The notes under the pieces are model-generated. The model was given only the letters and a program-made list of their open reading frames with translations. It did no database searches and had not been told where the DNA came from. Both the position numbers and the translations under genes were made by a program. A DNA stretch of 64,000 nucleotides from an uncultured Spirochaetales bacterium. Lineage in GTDB: Bacteria; Spirochaetota; Spirochaetia; Sphaerochaetales; Sphaerochaetaceae. Positions within the stretch are counted from its first letter, which is position 1, and every line of letters begins with the position of its first letter. Location: assembly GCA_944392695.1 (NCBI GenBank), contig CALXXN010000008.1, positions 1-64,000 of the forward strand. Direction: 5' to 3'. Shown here in pieces: positions 27,643 to 33,680 of the stretch.

Positions 27643-28518
27643 ATGTTCAACATACACCCTGCCAGTGTCTATGGCTTTTGCAAGGGCGTCGAGAGCGCGA
27701 CCAAGCAAGCCATCACCTTGACCCGGTCCCACCATGATGGACCTCTCTATTCAATTGGCCGTCTTGTACATAATGAGCGTGTCTGCAAGTCGCTTGAGGA
27801 GGCTGGTATGCGTGTTGTGATGTCCCCGGGGGATGCTGAGCCTGGTACGGCCCTTGTCAGGGCACATGGCATACCAGTGGAACTCTGGAAGGAGTTCGAG
27901 GATGCGGGTTACACGCTTGTTGATGGGACCTGCCGCCTGGTCGCTGCGAACCACAGGCTCTGTGAACGCCTCCATGGCCCTGTGCTATTCTTTGGAATCA
28001 AGGGACATGCTGAGACAGTGAGCACTGTCAGCCATATCAAGGTGGGGTACAAGGTCATCCAGGACGAGGAGGATCTTGATGGGCTGGATCCTGATGCCCT
28101 TTACGATGTGGTGGTCCAGACGACCTTCTCTTCTTCCAAGCAGGAACGGTTTTGCAAATTGCTTGATGAGCGTGGAATCCGTTACCGTGTGCGCAACTCG
28201 ATCTGCGCAGCCTCGAGCCGCAGGCGACAGGCAGTCAAGGACCTGTGCCAGAAGTGCGACCTGGTATTGATCCTGGGGGAGGCTCACAGTGCGAACACGA
28301 ACGAACTGTACCGCATAGCACAAGGCGAGGGGGTCCGTAGCTACATGGTCGCATCCTGCGCCGATGTGACGGACGAGATGCTTATCGGAGCACATGATGT
28401 GGGTGTCAGCGCAGGCGCTTCGGCCGCACCACGCCATGTGACAGAGCTGATCCGTTTCTTGGAAGCCAAAGGTGGAGTGATTGCTGGGGCTGAAGCTGAC
28501 AACTCTGATGATCTGTGA
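27643..28518 (+). CDS. ispH: 4-hydroxy-3-methylbut-2-enyl diphosphate reductase
   Basis: 291-residue iron-sulfur enzyme, the last step of the non-mevalonate (MEP) pathway, producing IPP and DMAPP. The three cluster-binding cysteines lie in 'VYGFCKGVESA', 'LVDGTCRLVAANH' and 'RNSICAASSRRRQAV'. 'VRAHGIP', 'HAETVSTVSHIK' and 'HSANTNELYRIA' are also diagnostic. AGGAGC lies 2 nt before ATG 27643. It follows the yajC terminator, so it needs its own promoter. It supplies isoprenoid precursors, relevant to the polyprenol-kinase-like pair at 20.5-22.0 kb. Confidence 0.92.
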   Translation: MFNIHPASVYGFCKGVESATKQAITLTRSHHDGPLYSIGRLVHNERVCKSLEEAGMRVVMSPGDAEPGTALVRAHGIPVELWKEFEDAGYTLVDGTCRLVAANHRLCERLHGPVLFFGIKGHAETVSTVSHIKVGYKVIQDEEDLDGLDPDALYDVVVQTTFSSSKQERFCKLLDERGIRYRVRNSICAASSRRRQAVKDLCQKCDLVLILGEAHSANTNELYRIAQGEGVRSYMVASCADVTDEMLIGAHDVGVSAGASAAPRHVTELIRFLEAKGGVIAGAEADNSDDL

Positions 28519-28725: not shown

Positions 28726-28974
28726 ATGGCAAAGAAGATAACAGTAGAGCTCTGCATGGGCTCCAGCTGCTTCGCAAGAGGCAACAGCGAGATCCTGCAG
28801 GCCCTGGAGTCCTTCATAGCGGAACGTGGTCTTGAAGATAATATCGAACTGGTTGGGCATCTCTGCCTTGGCAAGTGCAACGAGGGACCCAACCTGAGGA
28901 TTGATGGCACCGATTACTCTGGTATTGGGTCGGAGGAGGCCATCGCCCTCATCGCCCGGGCTTTGGAGGAGTAG
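28726..28974 (+). CDS. Thioredoxin-like [2Fe-2S] ferredoxin domain protein
   Basis: 82-residue protein of the NuoE/HydC-type thioredoxin-like [2Fe-2S] family. It has the characteristic four-cysteine pattern: 'CMGSSC' near the N terminus and 'CLGKC' about 30 residues later. It probably passes electrons to the hydrogenase-like proteins encoded next. It opens a five-gene run that also contains a second copy of the same type (31967). The 207 bp upstream, after ispH, should contain the promoter; none is convincing by eye. Confidence 0.85.
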   Translation: MAKKITVELCMGSSCFARGNSEILQALESFIAERGLEDNIELVGHLCLGKCNEGPNLRIDGTDYSGIGSEEAIALIARALEE

Positions 28975-28976
28975 TG

Positions 28977-30761
28977 ATGCTTTACCCTGTATACACAGAG
29001 ACTACCAGCTGTCGTGACTGCTACAAGTGTGTCCGCTCCTGTCCTGTCAAGGCGATCCAGATCAAGGATGGTCATGCGGTGATCATCAAGGACCGTTGCA
29101 TCTTCTGTGGCAACTGTGTCGCTGTCTGCCCGAACAAGGCGAAGAAGATCCGTAGCGACCTCTCCAGGGCAAAGGTCCTGATGGGGACCAAGGACCGTGT
29201 TATCTGCTCCCTTGCCCCTTCCTATGCCGGTGAGTTCAAGGGCAGGGAGGCCAAGGTCCTTGCGGCTTTGAGGAAACTTGGGTTCTGGGGTGTCAGCGAG
29301 ACAGCTATTGGAGCTTCTTTTGTATCAGCTGCCATAGATGAGTACGCAAGCACCCACGGCGGCAAATGCCCTTGGGTGTCCACCGCCTGTCCTTCTGTCG
29401 TGGAGCTTGTCAGGAAATACCATCCCGATGATATCGCCCGCCTGGCGAAGGTCCCCTCACCATTGCAGACACATTGTGCCTACCTCAGGAAGCTTTATGG
29501 TGATGACATAGGAATCATCTTCATCGGACCCTGTGTCGCGAAGAAGAACGAAGCTGACATCGCCCCTGGTTTCCCCGATATCGCACTGACCTGGGATGAG
29601 ATGCTCGAATGGATCGAGGATGAGCATTTCAGCCTCGACTCTGTCGATGAGGCTGACGCCCTCTCATTCATACCAGCTCCAGCTGGCAGGGCGGCTTATT
29701 ATCCGGTGGAGAATGGCCAGATCGTCACATCGGGGATCTGGGGTACATCAGCTTTCAATGAGGATGCTGTCTCCATCTCAGGTACAGGTGTCCATCAGGT
29801 CTTCGGACATATTGATGATAAGACGCCTTTCCTCGAGCTCCTGTGCTGCGAGGGTGGTTGTATCAACGGCCCTGTTGGGGACAAGAGTGTGAGCATCGCA
29901 GAGAAGAAGAGCGCTGTCGTCAAATCGACAGAGGCCCGGATCCGCTCTGGTGCCAGCCTTTTCGAGCCTGACAGGGAGTTCACACATGAGTTGCTGGAGA
30001 AGGGCTATGGCCTCATCACCTCGCTCAAGGAGGAGCGGAGGCCGGACTTCCACCAGGATTTCAGCGAGGAGCAGATCCAGCAGGCCCTCCTGGAGCTTGG
30101 AAAGACAAGCAAGGCTGACGAGCTCAATTGTGGAGGCTGTGGCTACAACACCTGCCGTGACATGGCGATCGCCTACCTCTCCGGCATGGCTGAGGTCGAG
30201 ATGTGTGTGACGAAGATGCGCAAGGACGCCCAGAGCAAGGTCGATGTCCTCCTGCGCACGATTCCGAACGCGATCGTCATCGTCAACAAGGACCTCAACA
30301 TCGCTGATTGCAATCTGAACTTCCTGCGTATCTTTGGTGACATGGATGAGGCCATGCTCGACGAGAACATGCTGACACTTGTCAGTGGCCTGCCTCTCGA
30401 GCGTTTTGTGCCATTCTACCAGAAGTTCAACGATGAGTTCCTTGCGACCAAGCGTGGACGTTACAGGCTGCACTACAAGGACAAGTTCCTCCGTGTGACC
30501 TTCTTCCTGGTTGAATCAGGACGCCTGCTTGGTGCGATGTTCGAGGACATCACAAGTCCGACAGTGCGCCGTGAGACTGTCGTCAAGAAGGCTGAGGATG
30601 TCATAGAGAACTCCCTCAAGACAGTACAGCAGATCGCTTCCCTGCTTGGTGAGAACGCGGCTGAGACCGAAATCATGCTCAACAGCCTGATTGATGCCTT
30701 CAGCGTACATGGTGGATCGGAGGGCGATGGCTTCTCCTTGGATGAGGACAGGGACCTGTGA
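28977..30761 (+). CDS. Sensory-type [FeFe] hydrogenase homologue with PAS domain
   Basis: 594 residues. Two 4Fe-4S motifs at the N terminus ('CRDCYKCVRSCP' and 'CIFCGNCVAVCP') are followed by an [FeFe] hydrogenase H-domain (about 70-340). Its modified cluster-binding loops are 'STACPSVVELV' (L1), 'FIGPCVAKKNEA' (L2) and 'LLCCEGGCINGP' (L3). Next comes an FeS domain 'LNCGGCGYNTCRDMA' (about 378-392), then a PAS domain (about 420-530). This layout is known from group C (HydS-like) sensory hydrogenases linked to phosphatases. L1 lacks the second cysteine of catalytic enzymes, so H2 sensing rather than turnover is likely. ATG 28977 has GGAGGAG 6 nt upstream. It overlaps the phosphatase gene by 4 bp. 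Confidence 0.85.
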   Translation: MLYPVYTETTSCRDCYKCVRSCPVKAIQIKDGHAVIIKDRCIFCGNCVAVCPNKAKKIRSDLSRAKVLMGTKDRVICSLAPSYAGEFKGREAKVLAALRKLGFWGVSETAIGASFVSAAIDEYASTHGGKCPWVSTACPSVVELVRKYHPDDIARLAKVPSPLQTHCAYLRKLYGDDIGIIFIGPCVAKKNEADIAPGFPDIALTWDEMLEWIEDEHFSLDSVDEADALSFIPAPAGRAAYYPVENGQIVTSGIWGTSAFNEDAVSISGTGVHQVFGHIDDKTPFLELLCCEGGCINGPVGDKSVSIAEKKSAVVKSTEARIRSGASLFEPDREFTHELLEKGYGLITSLKEERRPDFHQDFSEEQIQQALLELGKTSKADELNCGGCGYNTCRDMAIAYLSGMAEVEMCVTKMRKDAQSKVDVLLRTIPNAIVIVNKDLNIADCNLNFLRIFGDMDEAMLDENMLTLVSGLPLERFVPFYQKFNDEFLATKRGRYRLHYKDKFLRVTFFLVESGRLLGAMFEDITSPTVRRETVVKKAEDVIENSLKTVQQIASLLGENAAETEIMLNSLIDAFSVHGGSEGDGFSLDEDRDL

Positions 30762-31954
30762 ACAACGTATTCATTGATGTCGATTACGCACAGATCTACA
30801 AGCACGGCCAGAAGATAGGCGGTGATGTCTTCCTGCTCTCCCGTAATCCTGAGAGCAATCAGATCGTCTGTACGCTTTCTGATGGTCTTGGCAGTGGTGT
30901 CAAGGCGAATGTCCTGGCGTCCATGACCGCACATATGGCGCACAAGCTCTCCTTCTCGCCGATATCGCTCTCACACTCGGCGGAGATCATCATGAACACC
31001 CTGCCTGTGTGCAAGGAGCGGAAGATCAGCTACTCGACTTTCACGATTGCAGACATCCACTACAAGAATGACATGGAGAACATCAATGTCCGCCTTGTCG
31101 AGTACGACAATCCGCTCTCATTGCGTTTCAGGGGGACGGAGAAAATCACTTGGGAACGTGAACGGAACGAACTACGTCGTGAGGCCGCCTTCAAGAAGGA
31201 GGTCGTCCAATATTCGACCTTCGACATGGAGATAGGCGAGCGCCTGATCATGTTCTCAGATGGTGTGGCCCAGTCAGGGCTTGGCAAGACCCTGCCACTA
31301 GGGTGGAGGAACAGCGGGGTCGAGGCCTTCGTCACAGATCTCGTCTCCAAGCAGCCTGACATATCATCACGTGAGCTATCGGCTGCGATCGTCCAGAAAG
31401 CGAACAGCTTGGACGGAATGTGCTCGAAGGATGACATCACCGCTGTTGTCGTTTATATAAGGCGTCCCCGCAAGACAGTCATTGTCACAGGACCTCCCTT
31501 CTCAAAGGAGTCTGACGAGGTCCTGGGCGAGAAGATCCGTGCCTTCGATGGACGTAAGATCGTCTCTGGTGGAACGACGGCGCTGATTGTCTCCAGGCTC
31601 TTCAACAAGAAGATCACTGTCGACCTCAGCTGCTGGTCGCCAGACATACCACCTGCGAGCAAGATGGAGGGCATAGACCTCGTCACAGAGGGCATGCTTA
31701 CGCTTTCCCAGGTGGCCAAGGTCCTGGAGGACAAGACACCACCCTCGACACTGCCCAACAGCCCTGTCAGGAAGTTCGTCGAAATCCTCCTCGATAGTGA
31801 CCAGATCCACTTCATCGTGGGGACGAAGATCAATGAGGCCCATCAGGATCCGAACATCCCGGTGGAGATTGGAATAAGGCGTACCATAGTCGGCCGCTTG
31901 CGGGCCGCCTTGGAGAACATATATCTTAAGGAAACTTCACAAGAATATCTCTAG
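30758..31954 (+). CDS. SpoIIE/PP2C-type serine phosphatase
   Basis: 398 residues. The N-terminal half is a PP2C-like SpoIIE phosphatase: 'CTLSDGLGSGVKANVLASM' holds the first metal-binding Asp, 'GERLIMFSDGV' a second, and 'CSKDDITAVVVY' the terminal D-D motif. The C-terminal part (about 240-398) is a distinct domain with 'TVIVTGPPFSKESDEVLGEK' whose family I do not recognise. It starts with GTG overlapping the PAS-hydrogenase stop. Such phosphatases normally act on anti-sigma-factor antagonists; here the output of the H2/redox sensor is the obvious hypothesis. Confidence 0.85.
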   Translation: MNNVFIDVDYAQIYKHGQKIGGDVFLLSRNPESNQIVCTLSDGLGSGVKANVLASMTAHMAHKLSFSPISLSHSAEIIMNTLPVCKERKISYSTFTIADIHYKNDMENINVRLVEYDNPLSLRFRGTEKITWERERNELRREAAFKKEVVQYSTFDMEIGERLIMFSDGVAQSGLGKTLPLGWRNSGVEAFVTDLVSKQPDISSRELSAAIVQKANSLDGMCSKDDITAVVVYIRRPRKTVIVTGPPFSKESDEVLGEKIRAFDGRKIVSGGTTALIVSRLFNKKITVDLSCWSPDIPPASKMEGIDLVTEGMLTLSQVAKVLEDKTPPSTLPNSPVRKFVEILLDSDQIHFIVGTKINEAHQDPNIPVEIGIRRTIVGRLRAALENIYLKETSQEYL

Positions 31955-31966
31955 GAGGATAGTTAA

Positions 31967-32230
31967 ATGAAGAAGGAAAAAGTCCAGGTCAGGATCTGCG
32001 TTGGAACCGCGTGCTTCGTGCAGGGAGGCAGTGACCTCCTCCTGTACAACGATTTCGTCGACCCGGCCATCATCGCCGAGTGCGAGATCGAGGGCTGTTC
32101 CTGCCTCGAGACCTGCAAGGCTGGAGGGGAGGGTGCTCCCTATGTCCAGATCAACGGCGAGGTCCATGGCAAGGTGACACAGGAGGAATTCGCCAGACTT
32201 CTTGCGGAGGCGGTCAGGAAAAATGCTTGA
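31967..32230 (+). CDS. Thioredoxin-like [2Fe-2S] ferredoxin domain protein (second copy)
   Basis: 87 residues, paralogous in type to the protein at 28726. Four cysteines: 'CVGTACFVQGG' and 'CSCLETCKAGGEG'. Electron-transfer partner role is inferred from fold and context. AGGAGG is 6-7 nt upstream of the ATG and the gene overlaps the downstream hydrogenase gene by 8 bp. Confidence 0.82.
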   Translation: MKKEKVQVRICVGTACFVQGGSDLLLYNDFVDPAIIAECEIEGCSCLETCKAGGEGAPYVQINGEVHGKVTQEEFARLLAEAVRKNA

Positions 32231-33680
32231 GCTCAACAACCAGTACACCGCGATGAAGCGGCGCATCGACACCGAGGTGCTGAAACTGTACTTCGATGGA
32301 AGGTTGGAAAGCGATCTTGACAAGCTCCCGTACACCATCATCCCGAAGGACAGGACGCCTAACCGCTGCTGCATCTACAAGGAAAGGGCAATCGTACGCT
32401 ACCGCATCATGGCCCTGCTTGGTATAGACATCGAGCGCAATGATGATGAGATGAAGCCACTGGGGACCTATGCCAAGGAAGTCCTTGAGGAGGATCCTCC
32501 TGTGCTGCCCCTGCTGACGACGATCTCAACTGGTTGCTATGGCTGTCCTCCAGACCAGTACAGGATCAGTGATGCCTGCCGTGGCTGCTTCGCCCGCCCC
32601 TGCATGGCCAACTGCCCCAAGGATGCGATTGTCTTCATCAATGGACAGGCCCATATCAATGAGGAGAGGTGCATCCGCTGTGGCAAGTGCATGGATGTCT
32701 GCCCCTTCCATGCTGTTGTACACATCCCAGTACCCTGTGAGGAGGCCTGCCCTGTCGGGGCAGTGCGCAAGAACGAGCAGGGTGTCGTCGAGATCGACCA
32801 CAAGAACTGCATCAGCTGTGGACGCTGTGCCCGTTCCTGTCCCTTCGGAGCCATCGCAGAGCGCAGTGGGCTCTTCCCTGTGCTGAAGATGCTCGAACGT
32901 GGTGAGAAGGTCACTGCGATGATCGCACCTGCCATCGAGGGCCAGTTCCCTGGCACGCTCGCCCAGATCAAGGCATCCTTGCTGAAGATCGGCTTCGACA
33001 AGGTCGTCGAGGTCGCCGAGGGCGCTGCTGTCACGACAGAGCATGAGGCTGACGAGGTCGTAAGGCGCAAGTGCGAGGGTTCTGGCTACATGACGACGAG
33101 CTGTTGCTCGGCTTACATGGAACTGGTCGACAAGCACCTGAAGTTCCTTGACGAACGCTATTCCCGTGCCTTCAGCCCGATGATCTACACCTCCAAGCTC
33201 TGCAAGGAGGCGGATCCTGATAACAAGACGGTCTTCATCGGACCCTGTCTTGCCAAGAGGGTCGAGGCCGCCCGCCGAGGTGGTGTCGATGGTGTGATCA
33301 GCTTCTCCGAGCTGGCTGCCATCTTCATGGCCAAGGGCATCGATGTCAGGGAAGAAGAGGCTGCCGACCTTGGTGACACCTCTGCTTTCGAGTACTGCCG
33401 TGAGTTCGCTGTCTCGAATGGCGTAGCAAACTGCGTGCTCTCCCGTGTCGAAGACCCCGCATCAATCCGCGTCATGCCGATCAATGGTGTTGACAAGAAG
33501 ATCTTCCGCTTGATGAAGAGCTGGGAGAAGAGGGCACCTGAGGTCGACCTGGTCGAAGTCATGTGCTGCGACGGTGGCTGCCTCAACGGACCTGGCACCA
33601 TCGTAAAGCCGGCTGTCGCCATGAAGCTGCGTGGTGGCAAGGCCGCATCACCGGTCAAGGCTGTCAGAAGCCCGCTCTGA
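32223..33680 (+). CDS. [FeFe] hydrogenase (group B-like) with ferredoxin domains
   Basis: 485 residues. An N-terminal region of about 110 residues precedes several 4Fe-4S motifs ('CRGCFARPCMANCPKDAI', 'CIRCGKCMDVCPFHA' and 'CISCGRCARSCPFGA', plus a further Cys-rich stretch). The H-domain follows with L1 'TTSCCSAYMELV', L2 'FIGPCLAKRVEAA' and L3 'VMCCDGGCLNGPG'. The CC pair in L1 matches catalytic enzymes, although Pro is replaced by Ser and the L2 Met by Gly, as in group B. It may evolve or oxidise H2 with ferredoxin. Hydrogenase maturation genes (hydEFG) are not in the window. ATG 32223 lies inside the upstream gene. Confidence 0.85.
   Translation: MLELNNQYTAMKRRIDTEVLKLYFDGRLESDLDKLPYTIIPKDRTPNRCCIYKERAIVRYRIMALLGIDIERNDDEMKPLGTYAKEVLEEDPPVLPLLTTISTGCYGCPPDQYRISDACRGCFARPCMANCPKDAIVFINGQAHINEERCIRCGKCMDVCPFHAVVHIPVPCEEACPVGAVRKNEQGVVEIDHKNCISCGRCARSCPFGAIAERSGLFPVLKMLERGEKVTAMIAPAIEGQFPGTLAQIKASLLKIGFDKVVEVAEGAAVTTEHEADEVVRRKCEGSGYMTTSCCSAYMELVDKHLKFLDERYSRAFSPMIYTSKLCKEADPDNKTVFIGPCLAKRVEAARRGGVDGVISFSELAAIFMAKGIDVREEEAADLGDTSAFEYCREFAVSNGVANCVLSRVEDPASIRVMPINGVDKKIFRLMKSWEKRAPEVDLVEVMCCDGGCLNGPGTIVKPAVAMKLRGGKAASPVKAVRSPL

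Follow-up and report, generated by a model that had tools for sequence, protein, structure and literature searches.

A probable Hfs-type hydrogenase operon with a portable sensor-phosphatase triad in a spirochaete without detectable H-cluster maturases

RESULTS AND DISCUSSION

A five-gene hydrogenase module of probable Hfs type

The window analysed here, 64,000 nucleotides from an uncultured Spirochaetales bacterium of the family Sphaerochaetaceae, a gut spirochaete (assembly GCA_944392695.1, contig CALXXN010000008.1, positions 1 to 64,000), contained five plus-strand genes at 28726-33680. In order, they encode FD1, a small [2Fe-2S] protein; HydS, a homologue of sensory-type [FeFe] hydrogenases; a SpoIIE-type phosphatase; FD2, another [2Fe-2S] protein; and HydB, an [FeFe] hydrogenase of group B. 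Judged by its gene order and by published descriptions of hfsABCD, the module is probably an Hfs-type hydrogenase operon, in which FD1, HydS and the phosphatase form a regulatory triad beside a working HydB. Compared across genomes, the triad is a portable unit that stands beside different hydrogenases in different phyla. The window's genome (G000, 2.31 Mb in 39 contigs, with the window on contig C8) is a 96.5% complete assembly.

HydB would be the working enzyme, taking electrons from reduced ferredoxin and disposing of them as H2, as knowledge of its family implies, perhaps with FD2 as its own [2Fe-2S] electron carrier. FD1, HydS and the phosphatase would act as the regulator. Through its FeS clusters and H-cluster site, HydS may sense either H2 or the electron pool's redox state, with FD1 as its electron link, and its PAS domain would relay that state to the adjacent phosphatase. 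The phosphatase might then dephosphorylate a protein outside the STAS family, shifting the cell between H2 and ethanol or formate as electron sinks. We saw directly the gene content, the motifs, the intact site of the phosphatase, a conserved order and a constant triad whose partner is exchanged; the sensor and phosphatase probably regulate electron disposal. In fermenting bacteria, such an operon would make protein dephosphorylation part of how an electron sink is chosen. The initial annotation had supposed that H2 or redox state controls dephosphorylation; the link between a C3-like sensor and a phosphatase stands, while neither a STAS target nor hydEFG was found in G000.

In Thermoanaerobacterium, single deletions showed that without hfsA or hfsB both ethanol yield and adhE expression go up, an effect that requires hfsC and hfsD (PMC5707799, PMC11837493). 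Compared by description, HfsB (a PAS-bearing [FeFe] hydrogenase), HfsC (a serine phosphatase homologue) and HfsD (a ferredoxin-linked [FeFe] hydrogenase) follow the same order as their counterparts here (PMC11837493). HfsA is reported to align poorly with known proteins and, unlike the module in the window, hfsABCD is described as four genes with no FD2 (PMC5707799, PMC11837493). Thermoanaerobacterium carrying hfsABCD makes H2. In Ruminococcus albus, a group C hydrogenase and a phosphatase share a transcript with an alcohol dehydrogenase and a further hydrogenase (PMC6776011). This HydS/HydA2 cluster, a proposed H2 sensor that is itself H2-regulated, resembles the module in its group C enzyme, PAS domain, Ser/Thr phosphatase and ferredoxin-only hydrogenase partner (PMC6776011). 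It differs in including an alcohol/aldehyde dehydrogenase and in a hydrogenase called group A1, where the operon described here has a group B enzyme and no alcohol dehydrogenase. Rectinema cohabitans, a spirochaete and proven H2 producer, has hydrogenases of groups C3 and B (PMC6052044), the groups found in the module. The HydS proteins of Thermotoga maritima and Thermoanaerobacter mathranii likewise combine N- and C-terminal [4Fe-4S] clusters with an H-cluster, and PAS occurs in the group C enzyme; the work on these proteins treated each as an enzyme on its own, with its H-cluster complete, and did not discuss a phosphatase output (PMC13104023).

Since hfsABCD, the R. albus cluster and the C3 and B enzymes of Rectinema cohabitans have already been reported, the module is of a described kind. 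Its less described parts are FD2 and the unassigned C-terminal domain of the phosphatase. The initial annotation had likewise counted that domain, and the coupling to a second hydrogenase by a dedicated pair of [2Fe-2S] proteins, as less described; the arrangement of a phosphatase-linked sensory hydrogenase co-encoded with another hydrogenase is already known as hfsABCD.

Conservation of gene order and exchange of the partner hydrogenase

The five-gene order was kept in 25 of the 29 spirochaete genomes examined, across nine family-level groups, and this recurrence makes the arrangement more than chance. Most of the relatives compared were metagenome bins; the nearest named ones were uncultured Spirochaetales bins and Candidatus Ornithospirochaeta, and the phosphatase tree placed G017, a single-contig genome of the window's family, next to a Sphaerochaeta sp. 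Two genomes, G027 and G028, had reduced versions of the module. In G072 the triad occurred without an adjoining FD2-HydB pair, and in G073 the triad lay at one locus and FD2-HydB at another. The second locus of G073 (L096 7700-8407) held a phosphatase remnant consisting of the C-terminal domain only, followed by FD2-HydB, with the complete phosphatase and FD1-HydS elsewhere.

We scanned one genome per species from 84,980 species for the C-terminal domain of the phosphatase and found at least 579 encoding stretches. Partner counts and gene orders outside the spirochaete set were taken from the 80 best (named) loci among these, which spanned about ten phyla. At 77 of the 80, the gene immediately before the phosphatase was HydS; at one of the other three the contig begins inside the phosphatase. 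The triad's neighbour was an FD2-HydB pair at about 35 of these best loci and a HydABC-like set at about 32, the latter assigned from gene order and open reading frame length together with weak phmmer scores. The literature consulted on a phosphatase beside HydABC yielded nothing of use. Within the same loci, FD2-HydB partners were found in spirochaetes, Marinilabiliaceae, Planctomycetota and Riflebacteria, and HydABC-like partners in many Bacteroidales, Cloacimonadota, Hydrogenedentes, Victivallales, Ignavibacteriales and Myxococcales. The phosphatase tree required six changes of partner, at least two of them forced by well supported branches. Because the HydS-phosphatase pairing stays constant while the partner switches on the tree, FD1, HydS and phosphatase are the conserved unit and the hydrogenase its exchangeable companion. 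The five-gene unit of the initial annotation therefore recurs in spirochaetes, but its halves also occur independently, in G072, in G073 and in many Bacteroidota and other phyla, where the triad lies beside HydABC-like sets.

The separation of the halves in G072 and G073, and the other neighbours of the triad elsewhere, would also fit two unrelated operons that happen to be adjacent. We regard this as very unlikely: the genes overlap, the order recurs in the spirochaetes and in some members of Bacteroidota, Planctomycetota and Riflebacteria, and the triad's alternative neighbour is likewise a hydrogenase.

Two further arrangements were noted. In a Candidatus Riflebacteria locus (L137 412-13123), a single gene run contained a HydABC-like set, the triad, an FD2-HydB pair and another HydS gene paired with a phosphatase gene. 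In L141, L144, L150 and other Bacteroidales loci, an extra HydS-like open reading frame, cut by the left end of the locus, lay beyond a divergent HydABC-like set.

The [2Fe-2S] proteins and the two hydrogenases

FD1 and FD2 matched PF01257 with 33.5 and 31.5 bits, respectively (cut-off 24.8). Each has four cysteines in two pairs, CMGSSC and CLGKC in FD1 and CVGTAC and CLETC in FD2. The nearest solved sequence to FD1 was the C-terminal [2Fe-2S] region of an [FeFe] hydrogenase alpha subunit (7p5h_A 568-636, E-value 7e-11).

HydS matched PF02906 (120.9 bits) and contained two N-terminal [4Fe-4S] motifs, a PF04060 FeS domain with the motif CGGCGYNTC, and a PAS_9 match (E-value 3.7e-5) whose 24.4 bits fall slightly under the Pfam cut-off of 27. 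In a motif table of 30 homologues, its H-cluster motifs were LAPSY, TACPSVV, GPCVAKK and CCEGGCINGP; every cysteine ligand of the H-cluster is kept but the proton-relay cysteine is not, TACP replacing TSCCP. HydS thus bears the marks of group C3, namely the TACP H-domain, the C-terminal FeS motif, the just sub-cut-off PAS domain and an adjacent phosphatase. Motifs, domains and neighbouring gene together support its assignment as a group C, C3-like sensory hydrogenase. HydB matched PF02906 with 163.6 bits, and the corresponding motifs among 29 homologues were IAPAIEGQ, TTSCCSAY, GPCLAKR and EVMCCDGGCLNGPG, which include all cysteine ligands and the proton-relay cysteine. Its NCBIfam score for TIGR04105 (FeFe_hydrog_B1), 496 bits, exceeds the curated cut-off of 450, so HydB belongs to group B proper and is not merely group B-like, as it had first been annotated. 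The earlier proposal of a phosphatase-linked C3-like sensory hydrogenase co-encoded with a group B hydrogenase is borne out.

The phosphatase and its C-terminal domain

The catalytic domain of the phosphatase resembles those of the SpoIIE/RsbU PP2C enzymes in fold and metal-site residues. It matched PF07228 (SpoIIE) with 41 bits over residues 35-233, superposed on SpoIIE (5ucg) with a Z-score of 23.9 (2.9 A over 217 residues), and its metal-site aspartates D23, D42, D168 and D225/D226 were invariant in an alignment of 22 homologues. Unlike SpoIIE and RsbU, it carries a C-terminal domain that belongs to no known family, and the G000 genome yielded no STAS target for it. Pfam gave nothing for residues 240-398, and sequence searches of Pfam, NCBIfam and PDB with residues 239-398 produced no match, in agreement with the initial description of this part as unassigned. 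The structure prediction proposed there for residues 240-398 gave, for residues 239-398 modelled alone, a confident alpha/beta fold (predicted local distance difference test, pLDDT, 91.1).

A fold search with the full-length model matched the PP2C part alone. With the C-terminal domain, the best structural match was NuoG (7awt_G, Z-score 10.7, 3.5 A over 120 residues), and all ten matches with Z-scores of at least 8.2 were to chains of NuoG, formylmethanofuran dehydrogenase (Fwd/Fhc) and formate dehydrogenase, with no Foldseek E-value below 0.001. The likeness of the model to NuoG and formate dehydrogenase domains is moderate, and we do not treat it as homology. Conserved motifs of the domain were GGTTA, LVTEG and INEAHQDP, and its mean share of the commonest residue was slightly higher than that of the catalytic domain (0.63 vs 0.58). 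The INEAHQDP loop is nearly invariant and overlaps the lowest-confidence stretch of the model, which suggests, without proving, a binding loop that a ligand or partner would order.

Missing signalling partners and missing H-cluster maturases

Two sets of negative searches weigh against an H2-sensing regulatory operon. The first concerns the counterparts of the phosphatase: searches of G000 for STAS (PF01740), STAS_2 (PF13466) and Hanks-type kinase (PF00069) domains were all blank, so the usual partners of SpoIIE-type phosphatases are missing and neither a substrate nor a kinase was identified. RsbU and SpoIIE act on a STAS-family anti-sigma factor antagonist, the target also suggested in the initial annotation, and the SpoIIE/RsbU-type catalytic domain and the presence of STAS proteins in some relatives would suit such a role. 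With both STAS families unmatched in G000, and no PF01740 match in at least 14 phosphatase-bearing genomes, including several congeners and other genera, we consider this target extremely unlikely and reject anti-sigma partner switching as the output of the module. A Hanks-type Ser/Thr kinase as counterpart was likewise rejected, PF00069 being found in none of the 13 genomes of the genus searched (G000 to G012, that is, G000 and 12 congeners). The HATPase_c_2 matches in G000 lay in open reading frames of 373-594 amino acids that look like ordinary histidine kinases.

On contig C1 of G000, the hydABC operon contained a HATPase-like open reading frame of about 160 amino acids between hydC and a [2Fe-2S] gene (within L105 6240-6830), with a counterpart in G017 (L107 6019-6642, PF02518, E-value 1.4e-14). 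It is the only candidate counterpart of the phosphatase that we saw. If this short protein were the opposing kinase, the substrate could be a hydrogenase-associated regulator or a [2Fe-2S] protein. We think this improbable: most HydABC-like loci beside the triad yielded no such gene, which is therefore rejected as a partner of the triad in general, and a phosphoacceptor is not known.

The second set concerns the H-cluster. Profile searches for HydE, HydF and HydG with curated cut-offs covered 81 genomes; only one of 14 controls, Thermotoga maritima, passed the cut-offs, as expected. None of the three was found above cut-off in G000, where the initial annotation had proposed looking for hydEFG, and complete H-cluster catalysis or H2 sensing is unexplained there. 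The HydF search of G000 returned other GTPases only, far under the cut-off, and all three maturases were also undetected in 15 of 15 congeners. Across the window's family (49 genomes), three genomes had all three maturases (G030, G032, G035), three had HydF only (G019, G038, G047) and 43 had none, yet a PF02906 protein was present in all 49. The maturase-free genomes include the single-contig G017, G036 and G037, two of which (G017 and G037) also have the five-gene module. No HydE, HydF or HydG was found in 27 of the 43 phosphatase-bearing genomes. Weak HydE or HydG hits in G005, G007, G014, G018 and G036 were rejected as cryptic maturases; by eye they resembled radical SAM proteins of the MoaA, HemW or activase type. 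Outside the family, single-contig genomes G071 and G074 had PF02906 proteins with maturases undetected, and G058 had HydF and two copies of HydE with no HydG over the cut-off.

It therefore cannot simply be taken for granted that H2 is sensed in G000 through an H-cluster matured in the usual way. The module may instead work without the di-iron subcluster, HydS serving as a [4Fe-4S] redox sensor and HydB (and HydA) shuttling electrons between carriers with no H2 involved. We hold this to be a reasonable alternative, although not a probable one; the maturases are undetected in most of a family whose genomes all retain a PF02906 protein, but loss of the cofactor should relax the positions that bind it. 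The second cysteine of TSCC in HydB, the lysine of PCxxK, AP[AS], and the methionine and GGGQ of group A serve the di-iron subcluster. Residues of this kind were kept in HydA, HydB and HydS, alike in maturase-free and maturase-bearing genomes. More doubtful, though possible, is that most of the window's family, comprising gut and free-living spirochaetes, assembles the H-cluster of its group A, B and C hydrogenases, with their intact sites, without HydE, HydF and HydG. Either the H-cluster can be built another way, or conserved [FeFe] hydrogenase proteins function without it.

The phenomenon is not wholly new, since a few species with [FeFe] hydrogenase genes but without the three maturases were remarked on in passing in 2011 (PMC3226654). 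A limited literature search found no paper treating maturase absence in the window's family. The missing maturases are the least explained observation made here and pose a better question than the module itself.

Gene layout and neighbourhood

All five open reading frames were confirmed at the positions first annotated, with their domains recovered by Pfam and NCBIfam (Table 1).

Table 1. Features of the hydrogenase-phosphatase module, in window coordinates
Feature	Position	Strand	Description	Basis
FD1 (gene 1)	28726..28974	+	Thioredoxin-like [2Fe-2S] protein, 82 amino acids	PF01257
HydS (gene 2)	28977..30761	+	Sensory-type (group C, C3-like) [FeFe] hydrogenase homologue with PAS	Pfam, motif table
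Phosphatase catalytic domain (gene 3, residues 1-236)	30758..31465	+	SpoIIE/RsbU-type PP2C	PF07228, alignment, fold match
Phosphatase C-terminal domain (gene 3, residues 239-398)	31472..31954	+	Alpha/beta fold, no Pfam family	Structure model
FD2 (gene 4)	31967..32230	+	Thioredoxin-like [2Fe-2S] protein, 87 amino acids	PF01257
HydB (gene 5)	32223..33680	+	Monomeric group B [FeFe] hydrogenase	TIGR04105

Read from the sequence, the spacing along the genes is +2, -4, +12 and -8 bp, within the -8 to +12 bp first reported. The stop codon of FD1 occupies 28972-28974 and is followed by the HydS ATG at 28977, with a GTG at 28974 as a possible alternative start. HydS and the phosphatase overlap by 4 bp, a 12-bp gap separates the phosphatase from FD2, and FD2 overlaps HydB (ATG at 32223) by 8 bp. 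In a promoter scan, sites were not commoner than in shuffled sequences. Directly upstream of the module, at 27646-28518, lies a gene for the Fe-S enzyme IspH/LytB (TIGR00216, 194 bits, over the cut-off).

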